IMG/VR virus record: IMGVR_UViG_3300031578_012080
Span: 1 to 63,022 of that record
Length of the DNA: 63,022 bases
Source of the DNA: a virus
Direction: 5' to 3' (one strand)
Shown: positions 2,328 through 40,624 of the stretch, one piece after another
How the letters are laid out: every line of letters begins with the position of its first letter
How positions within the stretch are numbered: the stretch's first letter is position 1
Made by a program: the position numbers and the translations under genes
The notes under the pieces: generated by a model
Seen by the model: only the letters and a program-made list of their open reading frames with translations
What the model was told of the DNA's origin: nothing
The model's database searches: none

Positions 2328-3048
2328 CTTTAACATCCTTTAAATCATAAGATCTTACCATATTTTCTAACATATCAAAATGTCTCTCATATACATGAAA
2401 TGAAAATGGATGAAAATAAATTGCACCATCTTTAAGTTCAGGATATATCTTTTTCAAATCATCAAATAATCTCTCATATACTACACAGTGCCAATAGAAG
2501 TCATTAAAAAAACCATATATGGCATCACTTGATCTTTGTTTAACAACATAAATAAGCATATCCATTCTAATAAATATTTGTACACCGTCTGTGCACATAA
2601 AATCTGACATACCATCTCTATTATAATCTTCCCACATTGATGGTCTCTGGTAAATCATAACAGCTCTTCTTGAAAATTTATTTAGTTTTAATTCTTCAAG
2701 ACAATTTTTATATTGTGAACCATTTTCTTCAGAATAAATACACCATCCATAATTACTATTTATCATTCCATTTTTATCTGCAACATCTCGCCATATTTTG
2801 GCTTTCTTTCCTATTTCCTCCACAGATAATGATTGAGAATCATACCATTCTATTTCAGCTTTTGCATATTTTTCTGGTGTTTTTCGTGCACCAAAATCTA
2901 ATACTTTTTGTCTAGGGTCAAGCTTCATAATTGGGCAAAGTGTTTCAACCATTTTAACACCACTTTTATCAATTACAAAATGACCTCTTATACGATCATT
3001 ATTTAATTCTGAAAAGAACTCAAAGAGACGGTCCTCATTTTTTTGCAT
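2320..3048 (-). CDS. thymidylate synthase-family enzyme, probable dCMP hydroxymethylase
   Basis: 242 aa, about the size of T4 gp42. TS-fold landmarks are SRR at 126-128, nucleophile Cys152, QRSSD at 171-175 and HVY at 218-220. From the Cys to QRS the spacing equals that of E. coli TS with no gap. Continuing without a gap, the residue 31 after the Cys is Asp183. In E. coli TS (Cys146) this position is Asn177, which selects dUMP. In T4 dCMP hydroxymethylase (Cys148) it is Asp179. The likely reaction is therefore dCMP plus methylene-tetrahydrofolate to 5-hydroxymethyl-dCMP. The usual C-terminal folate-closing tail of TS is absent. The canonical PCH around the Cys is MCT. It is flanked by dUTPase and dCMP deaminase, with a carbamoyltransferase 1.9 kb upstream. 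Confidence 0.75.
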   Translation of the reverse strand: MQKNEDRLFEFFSELNNDRIRGHFVIDKSGVKMVETLCPIMKLDPRQKVLDFGARKTPEKYAKAEIEWYDSQSLSVEEIGKKAKIWRDVADKNGMINSNYGWCIYSEENGSQYKNCLEELKLNKFSRRAVMIYQRPSMWEDYNRDGMSDFMCTDGVQIFIRMDMLIYVVKQRSSDAIYGFFNDFYWHCVVYERLFDDLKKIYPELKDGAIYFHPFSFHVYERHFDMLENMVRSYDLKDVKDE

Positions 3049-3050
3049 TT

Positions 3051-3575
3051 TTATTCCTTCTTGTCTGTTGAGCCAAAACCACCATCACCACGTACTTTAT
3101 CCATCAACATGTGGTCATAAATTTCTTCTCTTGAAACTTCTTGTGGATTAGGAGTTAAAACAGGAACCATTGTCATCTGCACAAGTTTGTCACCTGGTAA
3201 GATCATTACATCTTCTTTACCAACATTATTCAAATTAATATGGATTTCACCATCATAAAATGTATCAATAACTTGTGCACCAACAAGTAGATGTTTTTTT
3301 GCAGCCACACCTGATTTATTAAGAAGCAAACCCATTGTGCCGTAATCAATTTCAAAAATTACACCAGATGGAATTAAAACTGATTGATTTGGCTGAAGTA
3401 ATATTTTTCCTGTATCGTCTATTTCAACACCTTTATTCACTTTGAGATTTTTTTCGATTAAATCTTTTACATACTTTTCAGTAGAATTTGGTGCAAAAAG
3501 ATCCATACCCGCATCTGTTGCATGTCCTCTTTTTGGAGATGTCACATCCCTAACTTTGGCAAATTTGATAATCAT
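3051..3575 (-). CDS. dut: trimeric dUTPase
   Basis: 174 aa. It hydrolyses dUTP to dUMP and pyrophosphate, and in phages with modified cytosine related enzymes may also act on dCTP. The conserved motifs are ATDAGMDLFAP (motif 1, residues 19-29), LLNKSGVAAKK (motif 2), GAQVIDTFYDGEI with Asp104 (motif 3), LPGDKLVQM (motif 4) and RGDGGFGST (motif 5, 162-170). There is an insertion of about 20 residues between motif 1 and motif 2 compared with short bacterial dUTPases. It starts at the usual MIIKFAKV segment and is packed between the TS-fold genes. Confidence 0.92.
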   Translation of the reverse strand: MIIKFAKVRDVTSPKRGHATDAGMDLFAPNSTEKYVKDLIEKNLKVNKGVEIDDTGKILLQPNQSVLIPSGVIFEIDYGTMGLLLNKSGVAAKKHLLVGAQVIDTFYDGEIHINLNNVGKEDVMILPGDKLVQMTMVPVLTPNPQEVSREEIYDHMLMDKVRGDGGFGSTDKKE

Positions 3576-3605
3576 TATCTTCTCCTTAGTCTTATTATAG
3601 TATTT

Positions 3606-4241
3606 TTATTTTATGTTTTTTACTCTTTTTACAAATTCGTCAAAAAAATCGTGGTTTTGGCCAGTAGAAGCAAAAATTTCTATGTTAACTGCTTCTTCTG
3701 AGGATTCGTAAACGGGCCTTATAAAAAACTCATAAATTGTAATTAAGTCTGGAAATAACTCATTCTCAATATCTGACGCCCTAAACATTAATGCTATTTT
3801 GTTATCATAATAGTGGATCAATGATAGACAACTTACATCTTTCCCTGATATTTCTGACATATAATAATCTTTAAGACTATTTGCCATTCTTAAAACGCAC
3901 CTTGTAGATTTTCTTTCATCACCAATAGTATTAGCCATCTTTTTTATTAAATTTATTGCTTGATGATATGGAATATCATTTCTATCTTCAACAGCATAAG
4001 TATAAATTGTACCCTCAAGTTTATCCATCTTATCAAAATTCCTGAAAGCGGGTCTATCTTTATGATGTCCGTATGCACCTTTATCTATGTTCTGCTCTGC
4101 AAATGTTCGTGATTTAACATAAAGATATTCATCAACACATTTTAAATCTTTAAGTTCGTCATCATTCAATCCAAAATTATTAATTCTCAAAAAATAAGAA
4201 TCATTTTCATATAGTGGTTTTTTAAAAACTTGAATTTGCAT
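3606..4241 (-). CDS. unknown protein, possible second thymidylate-synthase-fold member
   Basis: 211 aa. I do not recognise it outright, but the central part resembles a TS-fold core. There is a Q plus amphipathic helix near 94-103, KSTRCVLRM near 111-119 (compare sRRavl), a lone Cys138 followed by alternating hydrophobic strand residues, FRASD at 153-157 (compare QRSxD) and ELFPDL at 161-166. Aligning the RxxD motif puts Asp165 where TS has its substrate-selecting Asn. The Cys-to-Arg spacing is four residues shorter than in TS, and no clear HxY motif follows. It sits directly between dUTPase and the P-loop kinase. The family call is tentative; it could be unrelated. Confidence 0.4.
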   Translation of the reverse strand: MQIQVFKKPLYENDSYFLRINNFGLNDDELKDLKCVDEYLYVKSRTFAEQNIDKGAYGHHKDRPAFRNFDKMDKLEGTIYTYAVEDRNDIPYHQAINLIKKMANTIGDERKSTRCVLRMANSLKDYYMSEISGKDVSCLSLIHYYDNKIALMFRASDIENELFPDLITIYEFFIRPVYESSEEAVNIEIFASTGQNHDFFDEFVKRVKNIK

Positions 4242-4242
4242 T

Positions 4243-4908
4243 TTAAAGAATCCCTCTATTATTTGAAATTTCCTTAATATAGTCTAATAAAAAACCATAT
4301 TGTGTTTTAACATTTATATCTGTAATTTTATTTCTGCATGATATGTTTGCAACATCTATTTCTGCTTTTTTATCTATAATTGTTTCTGCAAAACCAATTG
4401 TCATATTCCTTATAAAATGATATTCATTTTCCTGAGTATATTTCAAATACTTTTGAGTGTAGTTATCAAATCTTTGCTGTTCTCTTATTGGTTCAAAAAG
4501 AAAAACCATATCATATATATTAAATAAATGGATATGTGTTTTTACTGTCAAAACACTTAAAAATTCATGATATTTTTTTATATTCTCTTCATCAAATGAA
4601 GATTTATCCAAATAAAATGTATAATAAAAATAACTATCAATGAGGCTTCTATCAAAAAATATTATTTTATTGTCATCATATATTTTAGCTGTTTCTTCTT
4701 GAAGTATTTTTTCACCTATCACTTCTATTTCAAAATCAAGATATTTAACTGGATCTTTTCTTATCTCATCAATATTTATATTTTTATCTCTTATAATTTC
4801 TGTTTTATGAACCACATTTTCTGGCCCTAAATCTTTTGTTAATTGTTCAATACAGGTTGTTTTACCTGAATGGGCCGATCCTGATATAACAATTATTAAA
4901 TTACTCAC
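4243..4908 (-). CDS. P-loop kinase, candidate deoxynucleotide (hydroxymethyl-dNMP) kinase
   Basis: 221 aa from a GTG start at 4908 (reading VSNLIIVISG), chosen because TTGGAG lies six bases upstream and the GTG overlaps the carbamoyltransferase stop (GTGAGTAA). A longer frame to 5010 would overlap that gene by 110 bases and has no sense of its own. Walker A is GSAHSGKTT near residues 9-17, and a DRSLIDSYFYY segment near 93-103 resembles the lid/Walker B area of NadR/AAA_28-type and nucleotide kinases. T4 needs gp1 to phosphorylate hydroxymethyl-dCMP, and this gene is the only small kinase in the cluster. The substrate is inferred, not shown. Confidence 0.65.
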   Translation of the reverse strand: MSNLIIVISGSAHSGKTTCIEQLTKDLGPENVVHKTEIIRDKNINIDEIRKDPVKYLDFEIEVIGEKILQEETAKIYDDNKIIFFDRSLIDSYFYYTFYLDKSSFDEENIKKYHEFLSVLTVKTHIHLFNIYDMVFLFEPIREQQRFDNYTQKYLKYTQENEYHFIRNMTIGFAETIIDKKAEIDVANISCRNKITDINVKTQYGFLLDYIKEISNNRGIL

Positions 4909-6601
4909 TATATGCTCCAATAAATAAATAAACATTTTTATCAGCACGTTCAAATTGAAAAAAGAAATCTTCCATTGCTTGATCAACAGTAAAAACAATG
5001 GGTTTTCCATGTATATTAAAAGATGTATTTATCAATGCTTTTGTTTTATCTTCCATCCTTTTTAATATTTTATAAATAGTTGAATCTCTATCAACAACAA
5101 TTTGTGGTCTACCAGAATATTTATTAATTAATGGATACTTATGCATTATACCACCATACTCTTCACAATAATCTATTTTATAATCATATGTCAAAATCAT
5201 ATATTGATCAGAACCAATAACTCTAGTGAATTGCTCAGCTTTAAAGAAATGATCAATATATTCATATAGAATACATGGTGCCATAGGCATAACTGTATTT
5301 CTTTTATTCAAATGATTAATATACTCAACATTCTTTTTTGTTGGTAATGCAAGAGTTGATGTATGACATAATGCTCTTGGTCCAAATTCCATATTACCAA
5401 ATACAATATTGACAATTTTATCATCCATCAATTTTTCTACAACACCGTCTACCATTTCATCTTGATTACCAACACATTTTATATAATCTGGATAATCTAC
5501 AGTAATATCTGTAATTTCATCTCTTTTTCCCCAAAGTAGACTATCAAATGGAAAGTTATTTTTTTGAAATTCATATAATCCTATTGCTGCTCCTTGATCA
5601 CCGCACACAGGACAAATACAAATATCACCTTCAATTTCATTCATTATTTTATTATTGAGTTTCACATTATAATAAATTCCACCAGTTAGAATAACATTTT
5701 TAATATTGAATTTTTCAATAATAAGAACATGAACACCTTCAATAATTTTTTGTATATAATATCCAACAACTATTCTCTTTATATTTTCATCCATTCTTAC
5801 ATCAAGACATTCAACCATGTTTTCAAAATCTTGATACCATACCTCTTTTGTTTGTTGCAATTCATCAATATTAATATAATCTGATGAATGATTTCCAGAA
5901 TTACTTTCATACATCAATAAATCAAACATGGTTTTTATAACACTTTTGGCAATCATATTTAATTTATCGATATCTTCATCAGAGCATACACTATCAATAT
6001 CAGATTCATACCCAAGGAACTTGTATTCATCCTGGTTCTCTTTCATTCCACAAAACGATGTAGCATATTGATACATAAGTCCTAATGATTTGAAGTATCC
6101 CGATGAATTGAAATCTTTCATTAAGGTTTTCTTCTTACCACCATTAAATGATAATTCATAAACTGAAAGAACTTCTTGATTATTACCAAATCCATCAGCA
6201 ACTATTACAGTTGCATCTTCTCTTCCATTATGTGAAACATAATATGAAACAGCCGACCATGCGTGAGCATCATGATGTGTAAAATCTTCATTCAATATTT
6301 CAAGCTTAAAATTATATTTTTCTTTTATTTCATTAATGAATCCATAATTATAATATTTATTTATTGTCTCATTATATTTTTGATAGAACAAAAAATTATC
6401 AAACCAATGAGAAACATATATTGTATTATCTTTGTCTGGATTGGGTGGACTCAATTCAAATATTTTCCTTATTGAATTTTCAGCAAATAATGAACATGAT
6501 TTTATGCCCGTTAATCTCTCTTCTTCATATGCTGCAATAATTTCATTGTCTTTTATACCTATTGCAGATGCGTTGTGTCCCAGTGTTATAAGTAATTCCA
6601 T
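4901..6601 (-). CDS. NodU/CmcH/TobZ-family O-carbamoyltransferase
   Basis: 566 aa, the usual full length. These enzymes make carbamoyl-adenylate from carbamoyl phosphate and ATP in a Kae1-like domain and pass the carbamoyl to a hydroxyl. Landmarks run in order: LGHNASAIGI and EEERL (7-30), the metal-binding HHDAH at 109-113, VIVADGFG, LTGGIYYNVKLN, PVCGDQGAAIG, MEFGPRAL, RNTVMPMAPCILYE, and LINTSFNIHGKPIV near the C-terminus. All signature blocks look intact, so I expect activity. Its place between the kinase, a UDG-like gene and the hydroxymethylase-like gene suggests the acceptor is the 5-hydroxymethyl group of a pyrimidine in DNA. Known relatives act on antibiotics and Nod factors, so another acceptor is possible. 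Confidence 0.93.
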   Translation of the reverse strand: MELLITLGHNASAIGIKDNEIIAAYEEERLTGIKSCSLFAENSIRKIFELSPPNPDKDNTIYVSHWFDNFLFYQKYNETINKYYNYGFINEIKEKYNFKLEILNEDFTHHDAHAWSAVSYYVSHNGREDATVIVADGFGNNQEVLSVYELSFNGGKKKTLMKDFNSSGYFKSLGLMYQYATSFCGMKENQDEYKFLGYESDIDSVCSDEDIDKLNMIAKSVIKTMFDLLMYESNSGNHSSDYINIDELQQTKEVWYQDFENMVECLDVRMDENIKRIVVGYYIQKIIEGVHVLIIEKFNIKNVILTGGIYYNVKLNNKIMNEIEGDICICPVCGDQGAAIGLYEFQKNNFPFDSLLWGKRDEITDITVDYPDYIKCVGNQDEMVDGVVEKLMDDKIVNIVFGNMEFGPRALCHTSTLALPTKKNVEYINHLNKRNTVMPMAPCILYEYIDHFFKAEQFTRVIGSDQYMILTYDYKIDYCEEYGGIMHKYPLINKYSGRPQIVVDRDSTIYKILKRMEDKTKALINTSFNIHGKPIVFTVDQAMEDFFFQFERADKNVYLFIGAYSE

Positions 6602-7342
6602 TTATCCCTCTAACAATTCTTTTATTTTTAAATTATAATGTTGTTTGCCATCTTTAAACTGCTGTCTATATATAAAATACGATGGATGATATGTATAAAC
6701 TGATTCAATTCTATTTTCATTCATAAAATTATAAACATCTCGTCCTAGTGCTAATATCTTTTTAGGTTTCAATATTTTTATTTCTTCTTCTAAAATATGC
6801 AAATATTTCTCATACATCTTCTCGTAAGAATAATTATTATTGTATGATTTATCATTCATTAAATTTCTTGATAAACATAATTTTGATAGATTAGTAAAAT
6901 ATATTCGTTTTAAATCTGATTTAAATCCTTCTCTTAACATTTTTGAAGTTAATGCAAAATAAAATGATGGTTTAAGCGGTTTTGACAACACATCTGTTTT
7001 ATTTGCATTATAAAATCCTGGTGCCATTCCAACTACCATTATACCATCAGTACCTATATACCCATCACCAACACAATTCAATTTATCTTCATCTTCCACC
7101 AAAATATCTTTATTTGTATCGAATAACAGTTGTTTATTTTTTTTATGTTCTTCATCAAAGACATGCATTAAAGGGGAAAATATAAAAAATAGGTTGGAAA
7201 CATCATCATCAACAGTAACAACAAATTCTGGATCAAGAAATTGTTCACGGTACTCTTTAAATACTGTGTATGTTAGTTCATTATATGGAAGAGAACTATT
7301 ATCTAAAATAAATTGTCTGAACCTCGCTAAAAATTCTTTCAT
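6602..7342 (-). CDS. uracil-DNA glycosylase superfamily protein
   Basis: 246 aa. The C-terminal two thirds carry a UDG fold: VVGMAPG at 103-109 (motif 1, GxxPG), IYFTNLSKL at 147-155, LKPKKILALGRDVYNFM at 191-207, and YHPSYF at 218-223 containing the HPS of motif 2. This pattern is that of family 4/5-like enzymes, but I see none of the four Fe-S cysteines of family 4. The first 95 residues are not recognised. It may remove deaminated or unmodified bases from phage DNA, or it may be a non-catalytic relative. Its stop touches the carbamoyltransferase start. Confidence 0.7.
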   Translation of the reverse strand: MKEFLARFRQFILDNSSLPYNELTYTVFKEYREQFLDPEFVVTVDDDVSNLFFIFSPLMHVFDEEHKKNKQLLFDTNKDILVEDEDKLNCVGDGYIGTDGIMVVGMAPGFYNANKTDVLSKPLKPSFYFALTSKMLREGFKSDLKRIYFTNLSKLCLSRNLMNDKSYNNNYSYEKMYEKYLHILEEEIKILKPKKILALGRDVYNFMNENRIESVYTYHPSYFIYRQQFKDGKQHYNLKIKELLEG

Positions 7343-7806: not shown

Positions 7807-8992
7807 AAAAAGATATGTCCAAAAATTTTTGGTAATCTTCACATGCTCTTAATTCATCAATTATTTTCTGATAATCTAATGCTTTAATTTTTTTAATTAA
7901 TTCTTCTTCTGTAACCAGCAAATCATATTTTTCAATAATCTCTTTATACTTTGGTAAATGACCATAGACATGTTGCCATTTAGAATCTTTATGAATTAAA
8001 GGTATACATGCTCTATCTACAGCTTCATGAAATCTAATTAGAGAGAACTCATTCTCACAATATGCTGGAATTACCATTGTATAACGAGCAGCTGCAATAT
8101 ACTTATCGTTATAATCAAACCCATTTACATACGTATTTATTTTTCTTTGTTTATCTTTAAAAAAATGTTTGTAAGTTATACCTTCTTTATCAAAATCTTT
8201 TTCCAGTTCCAAGAGTTTGCCAATCATATTAAATCTATATGGAACAGATGTCATAACACTTGTCATACCAAAAACAAAATCATATTCTTTTTTATATTCA
8301 AAAGTCTGATCTTTGTTTCGTTTGTAAATAAATCCATATTCTACATAAGGAAAATATTCAGCATTTACCCTTGGACAATCATAATAAAAAAATCTTTTAT
8401 TTATAGGATTAACTGCATGAAAACTTAATTCAAGTGGGTCATCCACAAATTGAACAATGGGTACATTATAATTTCTATTCAAATAATATTCAACCATTAT
8501 TCTTCTATAATAGTTCTTTATTGATGAGAAGCTGAATCCATACTTATCATCTTTTACAATATTTTTATATAATCCTTCTAAATTATCTTCATTACCAAAG
8601 CTCCAAGCATCAATTAATGGGGTAAATGCAATTATAACTTTATTGAAATGATATTGTGAAAATAAATCATCAAGTATTTCTAATGATTTTTTCCATGAAT
8701 CACTCTTCATATAATCTGAACCATCAATAAGACTTGTAAATTTTGTTTTATTTTTAAGCGTTTTTTCAAGACGCTCTGGGCGGACAAATGTGAAGAAATG
8801 ATAATTGTTATTTCCAAGTTCCACAAAATCTAGATTTTTATCGATACGGTGTTTTGCGAAAAATCCACAATGATTACATCCAAACATGACTAATGTATTA
8901 TTTTTATATCCTTCTATTTTTTGACCTTTTCTTCTTCTCATAGTTTGTACATTTGTTGTATCAACTTTCACATCACTTTTTCTTTTTATCAT
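7766..8992 (-). CDS. GT-B-like glycosyltransferase, candidate DNA-base glycosyltransferase
   Basis: 408 aa. The C-terminal half looks like the nucleotide-sugar-binding half of a GT-B enzyme: YTMVIPAYCENEFS near 304-317 followed by RFHEAVDRACIPLI near 320-333, the R..Ea...G.iPv arrangement with Glu323. The N-terminal half contains FGCNHCGFF and no known motif. It is adjacent to the DNA polymerase gene and upstream of the UDG-like and carbamoyltransferase genes, so a role in glycosylating hydroxymethylated bases, as T4 AGT/BGT do, is plausible. It could instead modify a virion or host glycan. The family assignment is moderate and the substrate is inferred. Confidence 0.55.
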   Translation of the reverse strand: MIKRKSDVKVDTTNVQTMRRRKGQKIEGYKNNTLVMFGCNHCGFFAKHRIDKNLDFVELGNNNYHFFTFVRPERLEKTLKNKTKFTSLIDGSDYMKSDSWKKSLEILDDLFSQYHFNKVIIAFTPLIDAWSFGNEDNLEGLYKNIVKDDKYGFSFSSIKNYYRRIMVEYYLNRNYNVPIVQFVDDPLELSFHAVNPINKRFFYYDCPRVNAEYFPYVEYGFIYKRNKDQTFEYKKEYDFVFGMTSVMTSVPYRFNMIGKLLELEKDFDKEGITYKHFFKDKQRKINTYVNGFDYNDKYIAAARYTMVIPAYCENEFSLIRFHEAVDRACIPLIHKDSKWQHVYGHLPKYKEIIEKYDLLVTEEELIKKIKALDYQKIIDELRACEDYQKFLDISFYENYKKRYQQDIF

Positions 8993-8998
8993 GCCGGT

Positions 8999-11900
8999 TT
9001 AAACCTTTAGTTTTAAAATATTATCTATAAAATATGTTTTCATTCCTGCAAAATCTTCATCTCTTCTTATTTTTACTTTTACAAGATCACCATTATAAGT
9101 ATCACTATTTATTAATCCAATATCTTCAGCAACATTTGACCATGCTTTCAAATCAATTGAATAACATTCATCGTATACTGTTGCATAAACTAATTTTCCA
9201 CTAATTTCAATATTATTAATATATCCAAAGCAAAATTTTGGAGGACCTATTGTCATTTCTTCACATTCAATTAATGTTTTTAAATATCTATCTTCAGATT
9301 TTACTTTTTCAAACTGAAATACTCTTTTTTCAATTAGCTCTTCATTTTTCTTATCAATTATGCTATCTATTTCTTCAGTATCTTTGGTTATGTGTATAAA
9401 ACTATTTAATGTACATGGTTTATAACTATAAATTGAATATCTTGAAACAGCAAAATATACAATTCTTCCAAGTTTAATTACATTCTTATAGTTTTCAAAA
9501 ACTGAATTCCATACTTTCAATGTTATAAATGAATTATCATCTTCAATTCTTATCTTATAAAATCTTCTTCCAGCCTTTGTTTCACCATCTTCAATTCTTT
9601 TTATAACACCAATGCTTGCACCATATCCGTTATCCTTTATGTTTTCAATAGTTCCATATTTTTTAACATCAATCTGCAATTGATTCATCTTATTGATAAA
9701 TTCAAAACCTAAAACAGTATTAGTAAATTTATCATTTTCTTCATCTGTAAGTTTGAATAGTTCAAGATCCATATCTTCAATTGTTAATTGTTTAATATCA
9801 ATTGTAAGATTGTTTGTTATTTTCTCAATAGTATTACAAATGGTATCAGAAACTGGATTTTTATCTCTTTCCTTTGCCAATCTACTGTGTTCTCCTACAA
9901 AAAACCCTTTTCTGTTTTGACATTTTTTATAATAAGTAAAAAGAATTTTTATTCTATCACCAAAATCATCAAATCCGCCTACAAGAATTAATGGCATCAT
10001 GACTCGTTTGGTAACTTTACTTTTACCTCTTTGTTTTATTGTTCTTTCAAGGAAATCATCAAAAGATGTGAACGGATGTTTATTTGAAATTTCAGCAGCT
10101 GGTTCAGCACCAACACCTTTCAAATTTATAAATCCAATAACAATACTATTCCCATCTATTGTGAAATTTAATTTACTTTTATTTACATTAATTCCTTCAA
10201 TATTAATTTCTAATTTTTTAGCTTCCCTTATGTAGCTCTCATATTTTGATTCATCTTTTGGAATATTCTGTAATACAGCACAAATATATTCTTTTGGATA
10301 ATATGTTCTGAGCCATGCACAACGATATGAAATTATTGTATAACTTACTGCGTGGGACTTGTTGAAGCCGTAGCCGGCCCATTTTAAAAATCCATCAAAA
10401 AGTTTTTCCAGTTCTTTTACAGGAAGATGTTTCTTACCATTTGCAATAAATTTCTTTTTATATTCCTGAAGTTTTTTCCATTGTTCATCTTTAACTGTTC
10501 CTTTTACTTTAGTAAGTAGTTTTCTTAAAATATCTGTTTCAACCAATGTAAAATCAGCTATTTTATTAGCAATCTGCATTATTTGTTCTTGATAAACTAC
10601 AATACCATAAGTATATCCAAGAACTTCTTCCAATAATGGGTGAATCTTATATTTTGATTTTCCTAATTTTCTTCTACAAAATTCATCAGTCATTCCACTT
10701 TGTAATGGTCCAGGTCTACCTAAAGCTGTAACAGCTGCCAAACAATCAAAACTATCACATTTTGAATCTTTAAGCAGTTTTCTCATCATTGGACTTTCAA
10801 ATTGGAATATTAAATTACCATTTCCAAGCATAATCTGTTCATATATTTTAGGATCATTTAAATTACTATCAATATCTTCATGTGCATCAATTTCTTTTCC
10901 ATGTCTTTCTTTAACAATTTTAATAGTATCCTTAATAAATGTTAGATTTAATAATCCAAGTATATCATATTTGACAAATCCAAAACTTGAAAGTTCCGCA
11001 CCTCTTTTTCCTTCAATCCATGCTGACAATATATTATTTTGTCTTGTAACTAATGGTAAATTTCCTGTCAAATCATGTTTGCTAATAATAAATCCTGCAG
11101 CATGTGCAGAAATATTTCTTATTCTTCCACGTATATTCCAAAATGTGTTATAGGGATTCAATGTTTTTTCTTCTGTTTTTCTTTGAACAAGTTGTTCATA
11201 TTGTTTTTCTCTAAGTGGTTCAAATAATGGACCAAAAGTTTTTTCTGCCTCCTCTTTGTCCATTAGATCAACATCTGATGTCAATTGTTTTGTTATCATT
11301 CTTGATACGACAAGCGGAACATCAAAAACTCTACAAACATCTGCGATTGAAGCTCTTGTCTGATAAGTTCCATAAGTACCAATTGCACATGTTTTGTTTC
11401 TACCATATTTTTGAATAATATAATCTTTTATTGCATCTCTTCCATGAGGTTCAAAATCTATATCAATATCAGGCATATCTTGACGTGCTTCATTTAGAAA
11501 TCTTTCAAAGAATAAATTGAATTGTAATGGATCAACATCAGTTATTCTGAGAACATAACATAATAATGCTCCTGCTGCCGATCCCCTACCACAGCCGACC
11601 CAGATATCATTGTCCCAAGACCATTTTACCATATCCCAAACAATTAAAAAATATCCTGAATATTCTTTTCTTTTTATTACATCAAGTTCCATTTCTAATC
11701 TAGCAATATACTTTTCGTTATTTTTCCCTCTTTCCTTCAAACCTTCAAATGCTAGATGTCTTAAATACTCATATGAACTATCAAAACCTTTAATGTCATC
11801 ATAATCTGCAATTTTCAAACTTGTATCAATTTCAACTTTACAACTATCTGCAAATTTTACTGCATTCTTTTTTGCCTGTTCATATACATCACGTGGAACT

Positions 11901-13273
11901 ATTTCAGTATATAAATCTTCATATGTTTGGTCAAGATCTTCAGCTGATTTATACCATAGTTCTTTAGAATGAAATGTAAATATTTTATCTGGGTCTTCTT
12001 GTAAATCTTTTATCTTATTATTATTTTGTATTAATAGCATAACATCTTGATAATATGAATCATCTTTCTTAACATAATGACAATCACTTGTCACAACTAA
12101 ATCTATGTCTAAATCCTTTGATATTTTTACAAGTTCTGCATTTACTTTTTGTTGTTCTTCAATATCAAGTAACATTAATTCAAGAAAGAAATCTTTTCCA
12201 AATATACTTTTATAATATTCAGATGCCTTATATGCACGATCCAAATCACCATTTAAAATACACTGTGAAATTGGTCCTGCATAACATGCTGTTCCACATA
12301 ATAATCCTTCAGAATATTTTTCAATCATTTCATGTGTTGTTCTTGGTCTTCTATAATATCCATTTATCCATGCATCTGACGTTAATTTTATCAGATTACT
12401 TAAACCTGTATTATTTTTTGCTAATAATGTTAAATGATAATTTTTTCTAAATTTACTTTGTAGATCTTCTAGTGAATCAAATCCTTCTGGCAATTTTAAA
12501 TCTTTTGCTGCTTTTACATTATATTCACGAAGATCTCTATAATCATTTAAATAAATCTCACATCCATATATTGCATTTAATCCTAGTTCTTTACAAATAT
12601 TATATTGTCTTGGAATTTGACCTAACATTCCATGATTGGTAATTGCTAAATGTTTCCATCCTCTTTCTTTTGCAGCATGTGCATATTCTTCAACAGTACC
12701 ATATCCATCTAAAAGTGAATATTCATCATGAATATGTAAATGTACAAACGGTTGGCATCCCTTTAATTTTTTTATTTTATCATCATATTCCTTTATAAAC
12801 TCTTTTATAAGGGGAATAGAAGGTTTTATTTGATCATACCATTCATCATAAGATTCACCTTTATCAATTTGCACAACTTGAGGATGCCAAATCGCAATTG
12901 CGTGGCCATTTTTCTTTTTTTCTAAAATACCATAATCCGCAAGATCCAATAATTCTCTTGCTAATTCGCCAATCGCAATTATTAGTTCTGGTTTCTGTTC
13001 ACCAATTATTCTTGTAATATAATCAACAAGCTCATCTTCATCTTTTTCATTTAAATCGAGTTCATCTTGTTTTCTAGGTAGGGCAGTGATGAAATAATTA
13101 TTAGAAGTTAGTTTTAGTGATGAAAATAATTTTCGTAAATGTTTGGAAAATTTTTCTTTTGCAATTTCTTTCTTTATATCAAATGGAAAATCACAATTAT
13201 CAGTTTCTCTATCTATTAAAATATCTAATCCGAAAATTAGAATCTTAGATTCTTTGTTTCCAAATTCTATCAT
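8999..13273 (-). CDS. dnaE: DNA polymerase III alpha subunit (DnaE type) with an N-terminal UDG-like domain
   Basis: 1424 aa replicative polymerase. Residues 1-165 look like a UDG-superfamily fold (NYFITALPRK near 59-68, KPELIIAIGELARELL near 94-109, WHPQ at 129-132) but lack the GxxPG motif. The PHP domain starts near 176 with HLHIHDEYSLLDG, then TNHG, YGCEIYL and SDCHY, so its metal site looks intact and could proofread. GCGRGSAAG and PDIDIDF (601-607) carry the catalytic Asp602 and Asp604; KYDILGL near 767 supplies the third. HAAGFIISK and GYGFNKSHA follow, then a C-terminal OB region (GASIGVIKRIEDG). E. coli DnaE is about 1160 aa, so the excess is mostly the N-terminal domain and the tail. 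The start has AAAGG upstream. Confidence 0.93.
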   Translation of the reverse strand: MIEFGNKESKILIFGLDILIDRETDNCDFPFDIKKEIAKEKFSKHLRKLFSSLKLTSNNYFITALPRKQDELDLNEKDEDELVDYITRIIGEQKPELIIAIGELARELLDLADYGILEKKKNGHAIAIWHPQVVQIDKGESYDEWYDQIKPSIPLIKEFIKEYDDKIKKLKGCQPFVHLHIHDEYSLLDGYGTVEEYAHAAKERGWKHLAITNHGMLGQIPRQYNICKELGLNAIYGCEIYLNDYRDLREYNVKAAKDLKLPEGFDSLEDLQSKFRKNYHLTLLAKNNTGLSNLIKLTSDAWINGYYRRPRTTHEMIEKYSEGLLCGTACYAGPISQCILNGDLDRAYKASEYYKSIFGKDFFLELMLLDIEEQQKVNAELVKISKDLDIDLVVTSDCHYVKKDDSYYQDVMLLIQNNNKIKDLQEDPDKIFTFHSKELWYKSAEDLDQTYEDLYTEIVPRDVYEQAKKNAVKFADSCKVEIDTSLKIADYDDIKGFDSSYEYLRHLAFEGLKERGKNNEKYIARLEMELDVIKRKEYSGYFLIVWDMVKWSWDNDIWVGCGRGSAAGALLCYVLRITDVDPLQFNLFFERFLNEARQDMPDIDIDFEPHGRDAIKDYIIQKYGRNKTCAIGTYGTYQTRASIADVCRVFDVPLVVSRMITKQLTSDVDLMDKEEAEKTFGPLFEPLREKQYEQLVQRKTEEKTLNPYNTFWNIRGRIRNISAHAAGFIISKHDLTGNLPLVTRQNNILSAWIEGKRGAELSSFGFVKYDILGLLNLTFIKDTIKIVKERHGKEIDAHEDIDSNLNDPKIYEQIMLGNGNLIFQFESPMMRKLLKDSKCDSFDCLAAVTALGRPGPLQSGMTDEFCRRKLGKSKYKIHPLLEEVLGYTYGIVVYQEQIMQIANKIADFTLVETDILRKLLTKVKGTVKDEQWKKLQEYKKKFIANGKKHLPVKELEKLFDGFLKWAGYGFNKSHAVSYTIISYRCAWLRTYYPKEYICAVLQNIPKDESKYESYIREAKKLEINIEGINVNKSKLNFTIDGNSIVIGFINLKGVGAEPAAEISNKHPFTSFDDFLERTIKQRGKSKVTKRVMMPLILVGGFDDFGDRIKILFTYYKKCQNRKGFFVGEHSRLAKERDKNPVSDTICNTIEKITNNLTIDIKQLTIEDMDLELFKLTDEENDKFTNTVLGFEFINKMNQLQIDVKKYGTIENIKDNGYGASIGVIKRIEDGETKAGRRFYKIRIEDDNSFITLKVWNSVFENYKNVIKLGRIVYFAVSRYSIYSYKPCTLNSFIHITKDTEEIDSIIDKKNEELIEKRVFQFEKVKSEDRYLKTLIECEEMTIGPPKFCFGYINNIEISGKLVYATVYDECYSIDLKAWSNVAEDIGLINSDTYNGDLVKVKIRRDEDFAGMKTYFIDNILKLKV

Positions 13274-33667: not shown

Positions 33668-34198
33668 CTATGCATAATCTAATTGACTGATTTTTACTTT
33701 TATAATTTTTTGAAAAAACGGTGGTAATATTTTTGCATATCCATTTCCAATATTTGCATCAACTACTGTTCCTTTTATACAAACTAATCCTCCTTGTTTT
33801 ATAACTACTTCATCTCCAACATTATATACACGCTCATGTTCACATATAATTATATCATCCATATCGAGATAAGCTTTCAAAATCGCCATTTCATCGTCTT
33901 TTGCAATTCCTATATACTCGATAATATTATTTATATCAAGGAGTTTTGAATAATTTTTATCTTTCAATCTTATAAATAAATAACTCGCAAATAATTCATG
34001 CCTTTCTTTTAATTGTAATTTTTTATTTTTTACTTCTCCTATATCTTCTTCAATCATCTCAATTATTTTTTTATTATAATTGGGAATAAACAATTCATCA
34101 ATATTTATTTCTACACCTATCTTATCAACTTCTTCTTTAATTTTAACTTCTTTTCCTAAATAATATGTGAAAACAAACCAGATATTAGTTTGATGCAT
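33668..34198 (-). CDS. NusG/RfaH-like transcription elongation factor
   Basis: 176 aa from the ATG at 34198 (MHQTNIWFVFTYYLGKE), which has AGGA seven bases upstream; a longer frame to 34255 overlaps the sigma-like gene. The NGN domain is seen in WFVFTYYLGKE, ELFIPNY and ELFASYLFIRLKDKNY. The KOW domain is YNVGDEVVIKQGGLVCIKGTVV near 130-152. It would bind RNA polymerase and act as an elongation or antitermination factor for phage transcripts. It lies directly after a sigma-like gene, so the pair may reprogram host RNA polymerase. Confidence 0.85.
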   Translation of the reverse strand: MHQTNIWFVFTYYLGKEVKIKEEVDKIGVEINIDELFIPNYNKKIIEMIEEDIGEVKNKKLQLKERHELFASYLFIRLKDKNYSKLLDINNIIEYIGIAKDDEMAILKAYLDMDDIIICEHERVYNVGDEVVIKQGGLVCIKGTVVDANIGNGYAKILPPFFQKIIKVKISQLDYA

Positions 34199-34220
34199 TA
34201 TACTATCCTTTGTATAATTA

Positions 34221-35150
34221 TTATTTAAAAAAGACTTCATCGACAGTAAGATCAAATTTACTTTTCAATTCTTTTTTTGCAAAATCATGCAACTTATATT
34301 TTATCTTTGTAATTTGACCTCTTGATCTATTAAATTTTTTTGATAACAATCCATCATTTTTAATTCCCCAAAAAGAATAATTAATTATATCTTTAAACAT
34401 CATTTTTTCAAATTCTTCGACAAAAATCTTTTTTAATTCAATAAATTTCTTATGAGTAATCTTATGTTTATCTGCTACGTATTCCAAAACCTCTTTGGTG
34501 TTGGCTTTCATTTTAATTATATTTAGTAAATCTTTAATCAATTCTTCAGGAATTTCCATATCAGTTAAAGCTAATTTTTTATTAATATGTTCAACAATTA
34601 CACGCTGAAAATATATAGTTTCTTTGTTATCCTCTTTACGTCTTGTTTGCAATTTTCCAACTGCTTGTTGTGAGATTACTTCTTCATATTTCATATGCTC
34701 GCCATAAAGATTATTGATCTCAATATTATACATATTAGAAGATGTTTTTCGTTTTATTTTCTCATATCTTTTAAATAAAATATTCATTGATGTTTTCAAT
34801 GTATCCCATGTATACGTAGAAAAACACCAATTAACATCAGGATCAAACCACTTTTCTAATTCAATGTGTAAATGAGTACATGCTTCTTGATATAAGTCAT
34901 TCTCCGATAACATATTATACTTTCTTAAGCGGTTTGAATTTTGTTGTATAAAGTTGTGAATTATTTGATGCCATGTTGCACCGCCGCAACCCCTTTCAAA
35001 TAGAATTATTTTAAACACTTTGTTTTTAATTTTTTGGTCTTCTGTACTTCTGTAGATTCTAACGAGATCTTTTTCGCACAAGTCACGTAAGACATCAATT
35101 CTAGGATTCGTGATAACATATTCGATGGTATATCTGGAATGGGCTAGCAT
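34221..35150 (-). CDS. sigma-70-like transcription initiation factor
   Basis: 309 aa. Region 2 is recognisable: SENDLYQEACTHLHIELEKW near 97-116 followed by FDPDVNWCFSTYTWDTLKTSM, the DL.QEg...L..A..kfdp...FstYa pattern. A C-terminal HTH (GLLSKKFNRSRGQITKIKYK, about 268-287) matches region 4. It likely directs RNA polymerase to phage promoters. The 70 bases upstream (35151-35221) hold a TATAAT-like hexamer and a four-codon frame (MIKQ) behind AGGAG, which may be a leader; the evidence for that is thin. Confidence 0.75.
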   Translation of the reverse strand: MLAHSRYTIEYVITNPRIDVLRDLCEKDLVRIYRSTEDQKIKNKVFKIILFERGCGGATWHQIIHNFIQQNSNRLRKYNMLSENDLYQEACTHLHIELEKWFDPDVNWCFSTYTWDTLKTSMNILFKRYEKIKRKTSSNMYNIEINNLYGEHMKYEEVISQQAVGKLQTRRKEDNKETIYFQRVIVEHINKKLALTDMEIPEELIKDLLNIIKMKANTKEVLEYVADKHKITHKKFIELKKIFVEEFEKMMFKDIINYSFWGIKNDGLLSKKFNRSRGQITKIKYKLHDFAKKELKSKFDLTVDEVFFK

Positions 35151-35221: not shown

Positions 35222-36364
35222 TTAAAAAAACTTTTCAAGTTTAAAATAATTATTTTTCTGTGAAAATGCATCATTAATTTCTTTTTTTATACAATCATCT
35301 GGATCTTTGCCTTGAGGAAGAAGAATATTAGAAACACATATATCTTCTAGACACTCCAGGATTTTTTTTGCTGCATCTTGACCAGGATTCTTTTTCTTTC
35401 CATTGACATCAATCTTCATATCGTTATCCAGTAAAATATCGATGGCATTAAAATTCTTAATTAGAAGTTTTATTCTATACGGATTTATATGACAACTTAA
35501 TGCCGCAACGGCATTATATCCAAAGTTAATTAATTTTATCGCATCGAACACTCCTTCACAGATTATCACGTAGTCCTTTTTTACTGCTTTGTCCCAATTA
35601 AAAAATATTTTTAATAAAGGTGCACCGAACGGATATAATATTTTTTTAACTTCATATTTTTTTCTTAATTCTTTAATTTGATCTTTTGTATAATTTCCTG
35701 CTTTTATTTGGTCTTTTATTTTTTTCCATAAATCAGATCTTCCTGACATATCTCTTGCTGCAAATGTAGCTAATTTGTTTTCAAAATAAACTGGTATTAT
35801 TAATCTATCTCTATATTTCTCATCATATGTAGATTTTGGATCATGACAATACATCATTTTCCATTTTTTTATATTCTTTAAACTTACTCTAAATTTTATT
35901 TTAGATAGATACTTTTCAGCTGGTTCAAAACATTGAGGATATTTTATTTCTTTAACTTCTTTTTCATCTTCCTCTGTATCACAAGGTCTTTTATATGCCA
36001 GCATTTCTTCATACGAACGACCTATTTTGTCAAATACATCTTCTGCTTTTTCTTCTCCAATTCCAACTTTTATTTTTATAAATTTAATTGTTTCCATTAT
36101 GTTTGGTAATTTTTCCATCTTTTTTACAAATGTGAAAAGATTACCACCACCACATACAAAACAATTATAAACACCATCTTTTTCCCTAATAGAAAATGAC
36201 GGACTTAAATCATCATGATCTGGAAATGGACAACAACATTGAAATTCTCTTCCTTTATGACCATGATATTCAGAATAATCAATATCATATTCATCTAAGA
36301 TTCTTATTAAATCAATTTTTTTATAGATTTCTCTATATAATTTTTTAAAATCAATATCACTCAT
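35222..36364 (-). CDS. DnaG-type DNA primase
   Basis: 380 aa. An N-terminal CHC2 zinc finger has Cys43-45, PFPDH (46-50) and CFVC (68-71). The TOPRIM core has VIICEGVFDAIKLINFG and the acidic DILLDND, followed by GQDAAKKIL. It makes RNA primers for the DnaE polymerase and should work with the DnaB-like helicase encoded 2.1 kb upstream. It is shorter than bacterial DnaG (about 580 aa) because the C-terminal helicase-binding domain is absent. Confidence 0.92.
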   Translation of the reverse strand: MSDIDFKKLYREIYKKIDLIRILDEYDIDYSEYHGHKGREFQCCCPFPDHDDLSPSFSIREKDGVYNCFVCGGGNLFTFVKKMEKLPNIMETIKFIKIKVGIGEEKAEDVFDKIGRSYEEMLAYKRPCDTEEDEKEVKEIKYPQCFEPAEKYLSKIKFRVSLKNIKKWKMMYCHDPKSTYDEKYRDRLIIPVYFENKLATFAARDMSGRSDLWKKIKDQIKAGNYTKDQIKELRKKYEVKKILYPFGAPLLKIFFNWDKAVKKDYVIICEGVFDAIKLINFGYNAVAALSCHINPYRIKLLIKNFNAIDILLDNDMKIDVNGKKKNPGQDAAKKILECLEDICVSNILLPQGKDPDDCIKKEINDAFSQKNNYFKLEKFF

Positions 36365-37164
36365 TTAATTTTTAAATTGTTTGCTGTAATATGATCTTTC
36401 AAAATATTATTCTTATTATACTCACAATCTACATAATCACAATATCTACAACCATCAGCTGGTTTTTTCTCAAATTCATTATTATCAATACAATCAAACA
36501 TCTTATTTACTAATACTACAATTTCATTATAATCTTTATCTTCTACTTTTTGTATAAAAATATCATTTACTTTTTTGGCAGGATGTACAAACAATACAGC
36601 ATCTTCAACATAACCATATTTTTTATTAAGTGCCCAACTATATATTAATCCTTGTATTCTATAATAATCATAATATTTCCCAGTTTTCCAATCTACAATA
36701 AATAATTTATCATCTACTTGAAATATTGCATCAATATATCCTTTTACATTTATTTCATACCTATCATTTTCATATGGTATTATAAATTCTAATTCAATTC
36801 CATAATCTTTTCCAAGATATTTTGCTTTTTGTAACCATTTATTTTTATGAGCCATGGCCACCCAATTTTTTATCATTGTGTAGCCACTCATTTTTGTATA
36901 CTTTAAATATGGATCAGTACACTTATATTCTTTTGTCTTTTGATTAAAAACACCTTCCCAATCATTGAATAAACTCCTTGTTATGAAATCTTTTTTATAA
37001 TAAAAAGCTTTCATTAATTCATGGAATGCTTGAGCTTTAACTAATGTTGCACCGGCTTTTGATATAGGTTCTCGTTTGAGAATCTTATCTTGTTGAAATG
37101 CCCATGGACAACCATCAAATTTACCCAATGTTGAAGCCGATAGATTAAAATCTAATTTTTTCAT
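36361..37164 (-). CDS. PD-(D/E)xK nuclease of the Cas4/RecB type
   Basis: 267 aa. It opens with NLSASTLGKFDGCPWAFQ (Cys19). The nuclease core is GYIDAIFQVDDKLFIVDWKTG, which holds the D and DxK residues, followed by YRIQGLIYSWAL (QxxxY). Three Cys near the end (CRYC, then DYVDC) complete the four-Cys Fe-S pattern of Cas4 and AddB. It likely acts as an exonuclease or endonuclease on DNA ends. No CRISPR genes are near, so a replication/recombination role is more likely than adaptation. Confidence 0.88.
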   Translation of the reverse strand: MKKLDFNLSASTLGKFDGCPWAFQQDKILKREPISKAGATLVKAQAFHELMKAFYYKKDFITRSLFNDWEGVFNQKTKEYKCTDPYLKYTKMSGYTMIKNWVAMAHKNKWLQKAKYLGKDYGIELEFIIPYENDRYEINVKGYIDAIFQVDDKLFIVDWKTGKYYDYYRIQGLIYSWALNKKYGYVEDAVLFVHPAKKVNDIFIQKVEDKDYNEIVVLVNKMFDCIDNNEFEKKPADGCRYCDYVDCEYNKNNILKDHITANNLKIK

Positions 37165-38459
37165 TTTTTAAATATATCAACAACAAAATCTATTGCTTTC
37201 TCATTTAATCTCATATTTTCCATTAATTTATATTGTTCTTTATTTGTTGCCATTTTCTCTATCATTGCTGCTTTTTTTTCATCATCATATAATAAGAGTT
37301 TTGATAATGAATTAACGTGTTCTTCAACTTCCTTCTTGTTGGTTGTAATATTATATTTTTTAGCAATATTTTCTAGTATTAATGTTATTCTTACTGTTTC
37401 ACTTGCTTGATCATTATTGTTATCATAGAAATAAACTTTTCCATTTGCATTGTTTTTCAGAAACTCTTTTTCTGTTTTGCCAAGTCTTGTTAAATAATTA
37501 TTCCAATTTCGAGCTATCTCATCATTTACCATTGCATCAGGAATAGGAGCAAATTTTGATTTCTCTTTTATTGAATTTATAACAATACGTTTAAAATTGT
37601 CATCATAATTTTTCTTTTTGACTTTAAATAATTCTTTTTTTACTTCTTCTTTATAATCATCAACAGATTTATATCCCATTCCTATTGCAAATTCTTCATT
37701 TAATTCCTGCTTAACTTTTTGTTTTATCAAATTAAGCTTAACATTAAATTTTGCTCTTTTTCCTGCTTTTGTTTTATCTCTATAATCTTCTGGAAATGTT
37801 ACATCAATAATTCTTTCCTCATCAATTTTCATTCCTATCATTTGATCTTCAAAATTATCGATAAACTGGTGTTTACCATTTTGAAGTTCATTTATACAAA
37901 TTTTATAATCTTTAGCAGTTCCACCCTTGAATGGTTTTTCCTCACCATGTAATATTCCTTCAAAATCAATTACAGCAACATCAAAATTATTAAGTATTTG
38001 TTTATCTGAATCAACAATTTTATCTTTCTTTGCCAAATCTGCTGTTATCTTATTCTGAATTGCATCTTCATCTACTGTTGGTTCAACATATGATAAATCT
38101 AAATTTTCAATCACTGGTAATTTCACATCAGGCTTTAATTCTGCTTTAAATGACATGGTGAAATCACTTTTATCATTTGTTAAATCACCAAAAAAATTGA
38201 AATCACTTGATGATACTATATTATATTGTGCTGCAACTTGTAAATATATTTCATCAATTAAGTTTTTATAAAGTTGTTCTATATCAAAGTTTTTTTCTGC
38301 AATATTTCTTGGAATATTTCCTTTTCTAAATCCCTCTAGTTGTGGCAAATTTTTTCTTATAGTATTATATGTCTTATCTTTTCTTTTTATGAAAGTATCA
38401 GCATCCTCTTTCACAGTAATCAAAACAGGTTGTGACATTTTTTTTAGTTTAACTTCCAT
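37161..38459 (-). CDS. tig: trigger factor-like ribosome-associated chaperone
   Basis: 432 aa, the same length as bacterial trigger factor. GFRKGNIPR at 43-51 matches the ribosome-docking signature, with Phe44-Arg45-Lys46 at the same numbers as in E. coli. The FKBP-like PPIase domain follows (VIDFEGILHGEEKPFKGG, then FIDNFEDQMIGMK and VTFPEDYRD, about 165-245). The C-terminal helical arms run from about 250 to the end. It would bind nascent chains on host ribosomes. It sits among replication genes between primase/nuclease and DnaB-like helicase. Phage copies are rare in my knowledge. Confidence 0.9.
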   Translation of the reverse strand: MEVKLKKMSQPVLITVKEDADTFIKRKDKTYNTIRKNLPQLEGFRKGNIPRNIAEKNFDIEQLYKNLIDEIYLQVAAQYNIVSSSDFNFFGDLTNDKSDFTMSFKAELKPDVKLPVIENLDLSYVEPTVDEDAIQNKITADLAKKDKIVDSDKQILNNFDVAVIDFEGILHGEEKPFKGGTAKDYKICINELQNGKHQFIDNFEDQMIGMKIDEERIIDVTFPEDYRDKTKAGKRAKFNVKLNLIKQKVKQELNEEFAIGMGYKSVDDYKEEVKKELFKVKKKNYDDNFKRIVINSIKEKSKFAPIPDAMVNDEIARNWNNYLTRLGKTEKEFLKNNANGKVYFYDNNNDQASETVRITLILENIAKKYNITTNKKEVEEHVNSLSKLLLYDDEKKAAMIEKMATNKEQYKLMENMRLNEKAIDFVVDIFKK

Positions 38460-38480: not shown

Positions 38481-39881
38481 TTATTCATTATTATTTTCTT
38501 CATCTTCATCCATCTCTTCATCTTCTTCAAATCGCATACGCTCAAATTGTTTTATAAAAAATGCTTCTTTTATGTCGGAATCTCTTGTTTTTGGAAATTC
38601 AAATTTTGCACGTTGTTTGTCACCTGTTATTCCAATCATATTGTCAGCATTATGACCAATTTTATCACTAAATGCGGCATCAACTGTGTCAACACCTTTT
38701 CCATGTTTATGTCTACTATGTGATTCTCTATTAAATTGACTTGCCGCTATAACTGGAAATGCCATTTTTCTTCCTAATAATTTTAAATCCCATGTTATAG
38801 CACCAATTTTATCATCAACTGTCTTATCATTTGGAACCATTTGATAAAGTGGATCAATTATTAATAAATCAACTTTTTCGTTTATTGCATTTTCGAAAGC
38901 TATAATTCTAGATTCAATAAATGAAGCATTACAATTTTCAGGTGCATCAATAAAATATAAAAAATTATCATGTGCATCTTTTTCTTTTTTTAATTGTTTT
39001 TCTAAATATTCAATCTCTTGATCTTCTAATAATTCTGGACGCTTCAGCTTATTATAATTTATACCACTAATGTGACAATAATACCTATTCCTTTGTTGAT
39101 CTAGAGGCATCTCTATTGTTATCACAATGACATTATAACGACTGTTATATGCATGACCGGCAAAATTAAGTAGTAAAACAGACTTACCCATTCCTGGACG
39201 ACCAAGAACAATAGTTAATTCTCCTGGAAACCAACCACCAGTCGCCCTATCGATTACGCTATATCCACTTGGGATACCTCTATATTTTGACGGATCTTTT
39301 TTCTTTGCTTTTATAAGATCCATATCCCTCTTAATATCATGAAAGATATTTTCTTCAATCATTCTAAAACTACCTGAACCAGCAGATATTTTAACTATTG
39401 TATCTGATATAGTTTGAATCATTTTTCTAGAATCAACTGTTGATTGATTACTATGAATCTTTTTTAATGAATCATTAACATCTAAATTAAGATCAAATAC
39501 AATTCTACAATTTTGCAACTCTTTAAGTTTATTTAAAGTGATTTTAAATGACTTGGGCTCAAAATCTTTTTCAAATATTTTATCTAACAGTATTTCCTTG
39601 TTTTCAAACTCATCTTTGTTTGTATATTTATGCTTTAGATTTTCTATAAGCATATTCTTTTCGAGACATTCTGAATGTTTTATATAATTCGAAACAATCT
39701 GTTCATATAACCATTTTTTAAATGCAGAATAAAAAATTTCATTACTCAAACCAAAGTTTACAACATAACCAATATTTGAATTAATTTCATTTACGTTGAA
39801 TTCACTATCTTTACTTGCATTATATAATAAACAACGCAAAACTCGATCTTCTAATTCTATATCAACAAACGGTTTTGGCAC
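38481..39881 (-). CDS. dnaB: DnaB-like replicative helicase
   Basis: 466 aa. The RecA-fold helicase domain has GYSVIDRATGGWFPGELTIV, Walker A GRPGMGKS, VIVITIEMPLDQQ, Walker B DLLIIDPLYQM, a sensor ASQFNRESH, and a C-terminal KHGKGVDTVDAAFSDKIG segment. The N-terminal domain is divergent. The end is an acidic Glu/Asp/Asn tail. It is encoded just after the loader and upstream of the primase, forming a bacterial-type replisome with DnaE. Confidence 0.92.
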   Translation of the reverse strand: MPKPFVDIELEDRVLRCLLYNASKDSEFNVNEINSNIGYVVNFGLSNEIFYSAFKKWLYEQIVSNYIKHSECLEKNMLIENLKHKYTNKDEFENKEILLDKIFEKDFEPKSFKITLNKLKELQNCRIVFDLNLDVNDSLKKIHSNQSTVDSRKMIQTISDTIVKISAGSGSFRMIEENIFHDIKRDMDLIKAKKKDPSKYRGIPSGYSVIDRATGGWFPGELTIVLGRPGMGKSVLLLNFAGHAYNSRYNVIVITIEMPLDQQRNRYYCHISGINYNKLKRPELLEDQEIEYLEKQLKKEKDAHDNFLYFIDAPENCNASFIESRIIAFENAINEKVDLLIIDPLYQMVPNDKTVDDKIGAITWDLKLLGRKMAFPVIAASQFNRESHSRHKHGKGVDTVDAAFSDKIGHNADNMIGITGDKQRAKFEFPKTRDSDIKEAFFIKQFERMRFEEDEEMDEDEENNNE

Positions 39882-40624
39882 TATTTATCGCCCTTTTTCT
39901 CTAATAGTTCATCCATTAATTTTTCACCTAATAAATCTCTGTAATCATCACCAATAAGATCAATTTCTATTAGTCTTTCTTTGAAATTAGAATATAATGC
40001 ATCACCAAAAACATCTTTATTGTCCCTTAACTCATGATTTGCTGTGATTATAGTTACTTTATTGGCATCATCACGTTTTGTGAAGATTTCATCAATATGG
40101 ACTCTTTCCTTTTCAGAAACATCAAATAATCTTACAATATCATCAACAACTAATATATCTGTATTGTCCACTATATAATCCCAATATATTTTTCTATCCT
40201 CACTCTTCCAACCAGAGCGTGCAAAATTAATTATTTCAGATGATTTGCAGAAAAAACATTTATAATGTTGTTTAATAGCTTCTTTAAGTATAATAATAGA
40301 AATAGTAGTTTTTGCCACACCATGTGGGCCCGAAAGATATAATCCTATTCCTTTTTTAACTGCATTTTCAAGATTATTTAAATAACTATCAATTTTATCA
40401 ATAGAATCATAATTTTTTTCAACTGTTAATATTCTTTTCTTTATTTTATCTAATTCAAATTTAAAATATTTTTGTGGTATATTTGCTAAAATATAATTTG
40501 TGTCTAACCATTTTTTAATAGAATCAATATTTTCTAATCTTTGATAAACCTTCTCATTTCCAAATTGAGTCAGTTCTCTGAATCTAAAATAATGATTCCA
40601 AAAATCTTTTTTCTTAGTCATCAT
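39881..40624 (-). CDS. DnaC/DnaI-like helicase loader ATPase
   Basis: 247 aa AAA+ protein. Walker A is GPHGVAKTT near 99-107, Walker B DILVVDDI near 155-162, and a sensor strand VTIITANHEL follows. The 95 N-terminal residues are helical and basic, the part that contacts helicase in DnaC-type loaders. The stop and start junctions with the DnaB-like gene overlap by one base, which supports joint function. Confidence 0.88.
   Translation of the reverse strand: MMTKKKDFWNHYFRFRELTQFGNEKVYQRLENIDSIKKWLDTNYILANIPQKYFKFELDKIKKRILTVEKNYDSIDKIDSYLNNLENAVKKGIGLYLSGPHGVAKTTISIIILKEAIKQHYKCFFCKSSEIINFARSGWKSEDRKIYWDYIVDNTDILVVDDIVRLFDVSEKERVHIDEIFTKRDDANKVTIITANHELRDNKDVFGDALYSNFKERLIEIDLIGDDYRDLLGEKLMDELLEKKGDK

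Follow-up and report, generated by a model that had tools for sequence, protein, structure and literature searches.

The DNA analyzed here (the window) is the 63,022-base IMG/VR virus record IMGVR_UViG_3300031578_012080, which has a GC content of 25-33% and whose larger genes lie on the minus strand. We found that it encodes a complete three-domain trigger factor (TF), at 37161-38459, and that this is a resident phage gene rather than the product of a misassembly. Our combined findings suggest that the TF is probably a functional, phage-owned, ribosome-docking chaperone made together with the replication proteins. Diverged TF genes are present in dozens of other large uncultured phages, a short way upstream of their replicative polymerase.

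Phages are known to depend on chaperones or to bring in their own, GroES/GroEL-type and DnaK systems among them, but we are not aware of any virus with a demonstrated gene for the chaperone that sits on the ribosome. Our searches of open-access journal papers found no phage-encoded TF, and the novelty is thus provisional. Analogues of TF were also not detectable among the viral proteins of a viral survey (PMC8407431).

A complete trigger factor gene in the window

The gene and its parts are as follows.

37161..38459, minus strand: phage trigger factor gene, 432 aa, ATG start; identified with TIGR00115, three Pfam TF domains, and AF2 plus Foldseek
38043..38459, minus strand: Trigger_N, the N-terminal ribosome-binding domain (by homology), residues 1-139; Pfam 64.9 bits, cut-off 22.2
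38319..38333, minus strand: GFRKG, putative ribosome-docking motif, residues 43-47, numbered identically in E. coli TF
37734..37991, minus strand: FKBP-type PPIase domain (FKBP_C), residues 157-242; Pfam 39.5 bits, cut-off 21.1
37179..37667, minus strand: Trigger_C, the C-terminal chaperone/cradle domain, residues 265-427; Pfam 75.1 bits, cut-off 22.7

An earlier note on this DNA had described a full-length TF with all three domains, and this description held up. The domains follow the order N-terminal, FKBP-type PPIase, C-terminal, each above its Pfam cut-off, and the protein matches the NCBIfam equivalog TIGR00115 ("tig") over residues 14-426 with 243.2 bits, relative to a cut-off of 180.2 and to 477 bits for E. 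coli TF. A phmmer comparison with E. coli TF (1w26) aligned residues 10-427 (E 2e-27). Together, these scores exclude a chance match.

The window TF thus resembles bacterial Tig (TIGR00115; PF05697/PF00254/PF05698; E. coli structures 1w26 and 2vrh) in domain order, length and predicted fold, as well as in its motifs. The GFRKG motif does lie at residues 43-47 in both proteins, as had been noted, and the docking signature was likewise found to be intact, with residues 43-50 (GFRKGNIP) satisfying GFRxGxxP. E. coli TF contacts the ribosome through its F44-R45-K46 loop. In the PPIase domain, the window TF retains all 11 of the columns whose conservation among bacterial TFs is 96% or higher. It differs from bacterial Tig in a short deletion in the N domain, a small loop insertion in the PPIase domain and an N at residue 48, which is K48 in E. 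coli and K in 94% of bacterial TFs. Other differences are its sequence (only ~25-31% identical) and its location, in a phage among replication genes instead of beside clpPX.

The AlphaFold2 model of the window TF has a mean pLDDT of 93.1 and all-helical C-terminal arms. Its top Foldseek matches were E. coli TF on a translating ribosome (2vrh_A, E 2.9e-22) and 1w26. Superposition on 1w26 with VIA covered 402 residues with a Z of 20.4 and an rmsd of 8.9, the latter an effect of domain placement. A fold search of BFVD with the same model gave zero matches at E<=0.001.

The trigger factor gene is resident in the phage

The window gene sits in a tightly packed set of replication genes, listed below together with the more distant gene for the phage DNA polymerase III alpha (PolIII alpha).

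39881..40624, minus strand: DnaC/IstB-like helicase loader; profile match (Pfam)
38481..39881, minus strand: DnaB-like replicative helicase, directly upstream of TF with a 21-bp gap; Pfam DnaB_C 8e-33
36361..37164, minus strand: PD-(D/E)XK exonuclease; its start codon overlaps the TF stop by 4 bp
35222..36364, minus strand: DnaG-like primase; 4-bp overlap with the PD-(D/E)XK nuclease gene
8999..13273, minus strand: phage PolIII alpha, 1424 aa, 24 kb from the window TF

Placement of the gene in a replication block, also proposed in the earlier note, is borne out by its flanking DnaB and nuclease/primase genes. Besides DnaB, the DnaC-like loader, PolIII alpha, the exonuclease and the primase, the window encodes a phage SSB, RecA, RuvC and SbcCD, and its contractile-tail genes include baseplate wedge phrog_6 and a sheath initiator. 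Codon use in the TF gene matches that of the other window genes tested (r 0.948), its GC of 0.256 equals that of its neighbours, and neither clpP nor clpX adjoins it, unlike in the bacterial contaminant records described below. The matched codon use, the 4-bp overlap and the site between the DnaB and nuclease/primase genes identify it as a resident phage gene. A four-base overlap had been cited before as making misassembly with host DNA unlikely; we found it between TF and the following PD-(D/E)XK gene, and codon use and GC fit the phage as well.

Several other features of the window were recorded. The replication block contains a NusG-like transcription antiterminator (33668-34255), and two superfamily-2 helicases, of the XPD/DinG and XPB types, are present in this one phage (32047-33645 and 41648-43126). 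Consecutive genes for a dCMP deaminase and for thymidylate synthase-like, deoxynucleoside kinase-like, Nol-like carbamoyltransferase and uracil-DNA glycosylase-like proteins occupy 1773-7342, possibly forming a modified-base or nucleotide module. Scans of the whole window for tRNAs and Rfam families found nothing.

Trigger factors in other uncultured phages

We searched IMG/VR for further phage TFs in two ways. First, an alignment-based scan yielded 14 loci, 11 of which carried TF and PolIII alpha together; most of these 11 also carried further replication genes (SbcC/D, RuvC, RecA, primase). Second, PolIII alpha was used as the query, which avoids the bias of TF-derived patterns. A TF was found in the flank of 20 of 80 loci, with 19 among the 28 first-listed loci (which make up nearly all of the loci at >=36% identity to the query) and one among the other 52. 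Besides the window, 33 distinct TF loci were listed, on contigs of up to 372 kb, and every one of them has TF on the strand of PolIII alpha and upstream of it, across a gap of 0.6-2.9 kb (median 1.3 kb). The window TF, at 24 kb from PolIII alpha and between DnaB and PD-(D/E)XK, is placed differently.

The contractile-tail baseplate protein phrog_6 was present in seven of the contigs tested as well as in the window (at least eight surveyed contigs). A search for terminase PF03237 in the other TF contigs gave only weak matches below the cut-off; their phage identity therefore rests on IMG/VR classing, phrog_6 in several of them, and gene content. A sister phage of the window carrying TF was not found: the nearest relatives of the window PolIII alpha are ~35% identical and their contigs are without TF, which was missing in 32/32 and 49/50 searched contigs with the closest or more distant PolIII alpha, respectively. 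Scanning viral contigs for close relatives gave none with the window TF and one weak match with the window DnaB.

Some of these loci have unusual arrangements. A small protein with the M41 (FtsH-type) motif HEAGH, below the Pfam cut-off, is encoded between TF and PolIII alpha in L031 (11862-12539), L038 (9207-9875) and similar loci, and might form a phage protein-quality cassette with TF. In L034, TF is split into two overlapping frames (8112-8591 and 8525-9472) upstream of PolIII alpha, possibly through a frameshift error, decay or frameshifting. In the 112,813-bp viral contig L027, the gene at 9737-10426 is not a TF; its product has a single FKBP domain preceded by a long N-terminal stretch.

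Annotated phage records gave a different picture. A tblastn search with the window TF against 50,697 such records detected TF-like sequence in 28. The bacterial tig gene usually has clpP as its partner, and at least 12 of the 16 TF-positive records examined carried clpP in the same record, one of them (L004) in the gene order tig-clpP-clpX. We rejected the TF matches in these as phage TFs; the records filed as phage that carry both tig and clpP (L004, L006-L010, L012, L014-L017 and L019) are probably bacterial contigs. Four of the 16 were without clpP, two of them labelled "UNVERIFIED_ORG". Two divergent phage TFs, used as further tblastn queries, retrieved only the same kind of record, and thus three TF queries found no clearly genuine TF in the 50,697 annotated phage records. 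The best PHROG for the window TF was PHROG 26774 (2e-46, residues 15-427), which is annotated as of unknown function and not as TF. This family may itself rest on bacterial-like or contaminant sequence, since bacterial TFs fit it far better (407 bits for E. coli TF) than the window TF does (159 bits).

The docking loop is conserved where the PPIase site is not

Conservation was assessed in 16 phage TFs fetched via PolIII alpha only; those found with TF patterns were left out of motif conservation because the patterns contain GFRKGK. Of the 432 columns of E. coli TF, only seven show no variation among the 16, and G43, R45 and G47 account for three of the seven. F44 is kept at 88%, and K46 is often replaced by P, A or E, of which P occurs in bacterial TFs too (L021). 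The 11 conserved PPIase columns fared worse, with a median of 5/11 and two phage TFs at 0, although L020 and L022 retain all 11, as does the window TF. Eight PolIII-linked TFs were scanned with Pfam, and three of them gave no FKBP match. Divergence notwithstanding, the model of the L031 TF (pLDDT 86) still has E. coli TF as its best structural match (E 4e-22).

That G43, R45 and G47 are kept while most else, including the PPIase site, has diverged lends strong indirect support to the idea that phage TFs dock on ribosomes, and suggests that docking is under selection in these proteins. For the window copy such selection is suggested by analogy, since close relatives were not found. The window TF is like the PolIII-alpha-linked phage TFs (e.g. 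L022, L031, L038) in being phage-encoded, full length, located in a replication block and in keeping GxRxG, but unlike most of them in its complete PPIase signature.

Retention of the docking loop also sets phage TFs apart from the TF paralogues of Myxococcus xanthus, which are extra copies without the docking motif (PMC11559001). Both are extra copies beside another TF, yet only the phage proteins keep the motif. Plastid Tig2, which consists of the N domain only, is the reverse of the M. xanthus paralogues.

Origin of phage trigger factors

We built a tree from 83 TFs: 33 from other phages, 49 from bacteria (among the matches listed, and Bacillota-rich owing to the search pattern) and the window TF. 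A single branch parts the 33 phage from the 49 bacterial TFs, with SH-aLRT support of 98, or 93 without four long rows. Unlike the PolIII-alpha-linked TFs, the window TF is placed with the bacterial TFs, where Bacillota are nearest to it in path length; its terminal branch measures 1.75-1.98 changes per column. The closest bacterial TF among the matches listed is ~31% identical. The earlier note had suggested a phylogeny to find the donor lineage. The placement obtained is Bacillota-like, but with so long a branch the donor is only weakly indicated. Joining the window TF with its nearest phage TFs (L020/L022/L023) was rejected (p 0.018), whereas joining it with all phage TFs was not (AU test, p 0.506). 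Separate capture of the window TF is therefore the favoured reading, and the AU test leaves room for one viral clade of phage TFs.

Taken together, we see about an even chance that large phages possess a viral TF branch, long kept beside the replicative polymerase, in which the docking loop is the conserved function and the PPIase is dispensable, and that the window phage took its TF independently. If so, host ribosomes would receive a nascent-chain chaperone of viral origin, or phages would use TF to keep host factors away from the exit tunnel.

Possible role of the phage trigger factor

We infer ribosome binding, expression timing and clients of the window TF from the comparisons above. Its gene packing suggests that it is made in one transcription unit with the replication proteins; together with the position just upstream of PolIII alpha in 33/33 other loci, this points to early or replication-phase expression. 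The GFRKG loop of the N domain, judging from conserved sequence and fold, would dock TF at the exit tunnel of host ribosomes, where E. coli TF contacts ribosomal protein uL23. The cradle and prolyl isomerase would hold and fold nascent chains and so allow phage proteins to fold when translation is heavily loaded during infection; the large multidomain replication enzymes would most likely be the first of these clients. Counting against this explanation, the window TF has N in place of the K48 of most bacterial TFs, no close relative of this phage was found, TF is to our knowledge absent from most phages, and the host has its own.

Alternatively, the protein could act off the ribosome, as an assembly or stability factor for the polymerase, helicase or nuclease, or as a tuner of their turnover by host ClpXP. 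The tie of TF to replication genes in the window and to PolIII alpha in 33/33 other loci fits this proposal, as does the M41-like peptidase gene between the two in several phages. There is also a precedent in host TF, which accelerates the degradation of the lambda replication protein O by ClpXP and delays it for some other phage proteins, MuA among them (PMC7804408). We nonetheless regard it as unlikely: the best-kept feature of phage TFs is a docking loop that would be superfluous off the ribosome, and gene neighbourhood in phages mostly reflects expression timing.

A phage TF could instead serve host takeover by dosage, with the extra copy competing with host TF and SRP at the exit tunnel, slowing host synthesis and blocking division to the benefit of the phage. 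An excess of full-length TF is toxic to E. coli and Myxococcus, where it reduces protein synthesis and disperses the Z-ring, and these effects need the ribosome-binding N domain (PMC11559001). Conservation of the N-domain loop in phage TFs, most of which show PPIase decay, agrees with such a role, but the window TF has intact PPIase and C-terminal domains, more than a blocker requires, and we consider this explanation slightly less likely still. That the gene is a neutral passenger, either a tig acquired recently from a bacterium or bacterial DNA joined to the contig by misassembly, appears very improbable: its place on the bacterial side of the tree, its bacterial PPIase residues and the failure to find a sister phage that keeps it would agree, but ~31% identity to the closest bacterial TF among the matches listed argues against recent capture, and the open frame, phage-like codon use, overlap with the next gene, lack of adjoining clpP/clpX and recurrence of TFs in other phages argue against an incidental presence.

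We thus prefer to read the TF as a nascent-chain chaperone that docks on ribosomes and is produced along with the replication proteins. Bacteria nearly always retain a single TF that binds ribosomes, seemingly because of dosage toxicity (PMC11559001), and a second, phage-borne copy would be a natural experiment on control of the exit tunnel in infected cells. The docking loop offers a clean, directly testable point mutant.

The earlier note had proposed long tail proteins, encoded to the right of TF, as its clients. Tail genes do lie to the right, at 43-61 kb, but TF is on the minus strand and they are upstream of it in transcription. TF sits among replication genes, and gene order gives the proposal no support. 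It is weakly favoured by the proline content of a 2784-aa tail-region protein, which is 4.8% compared with 2.9% overall.
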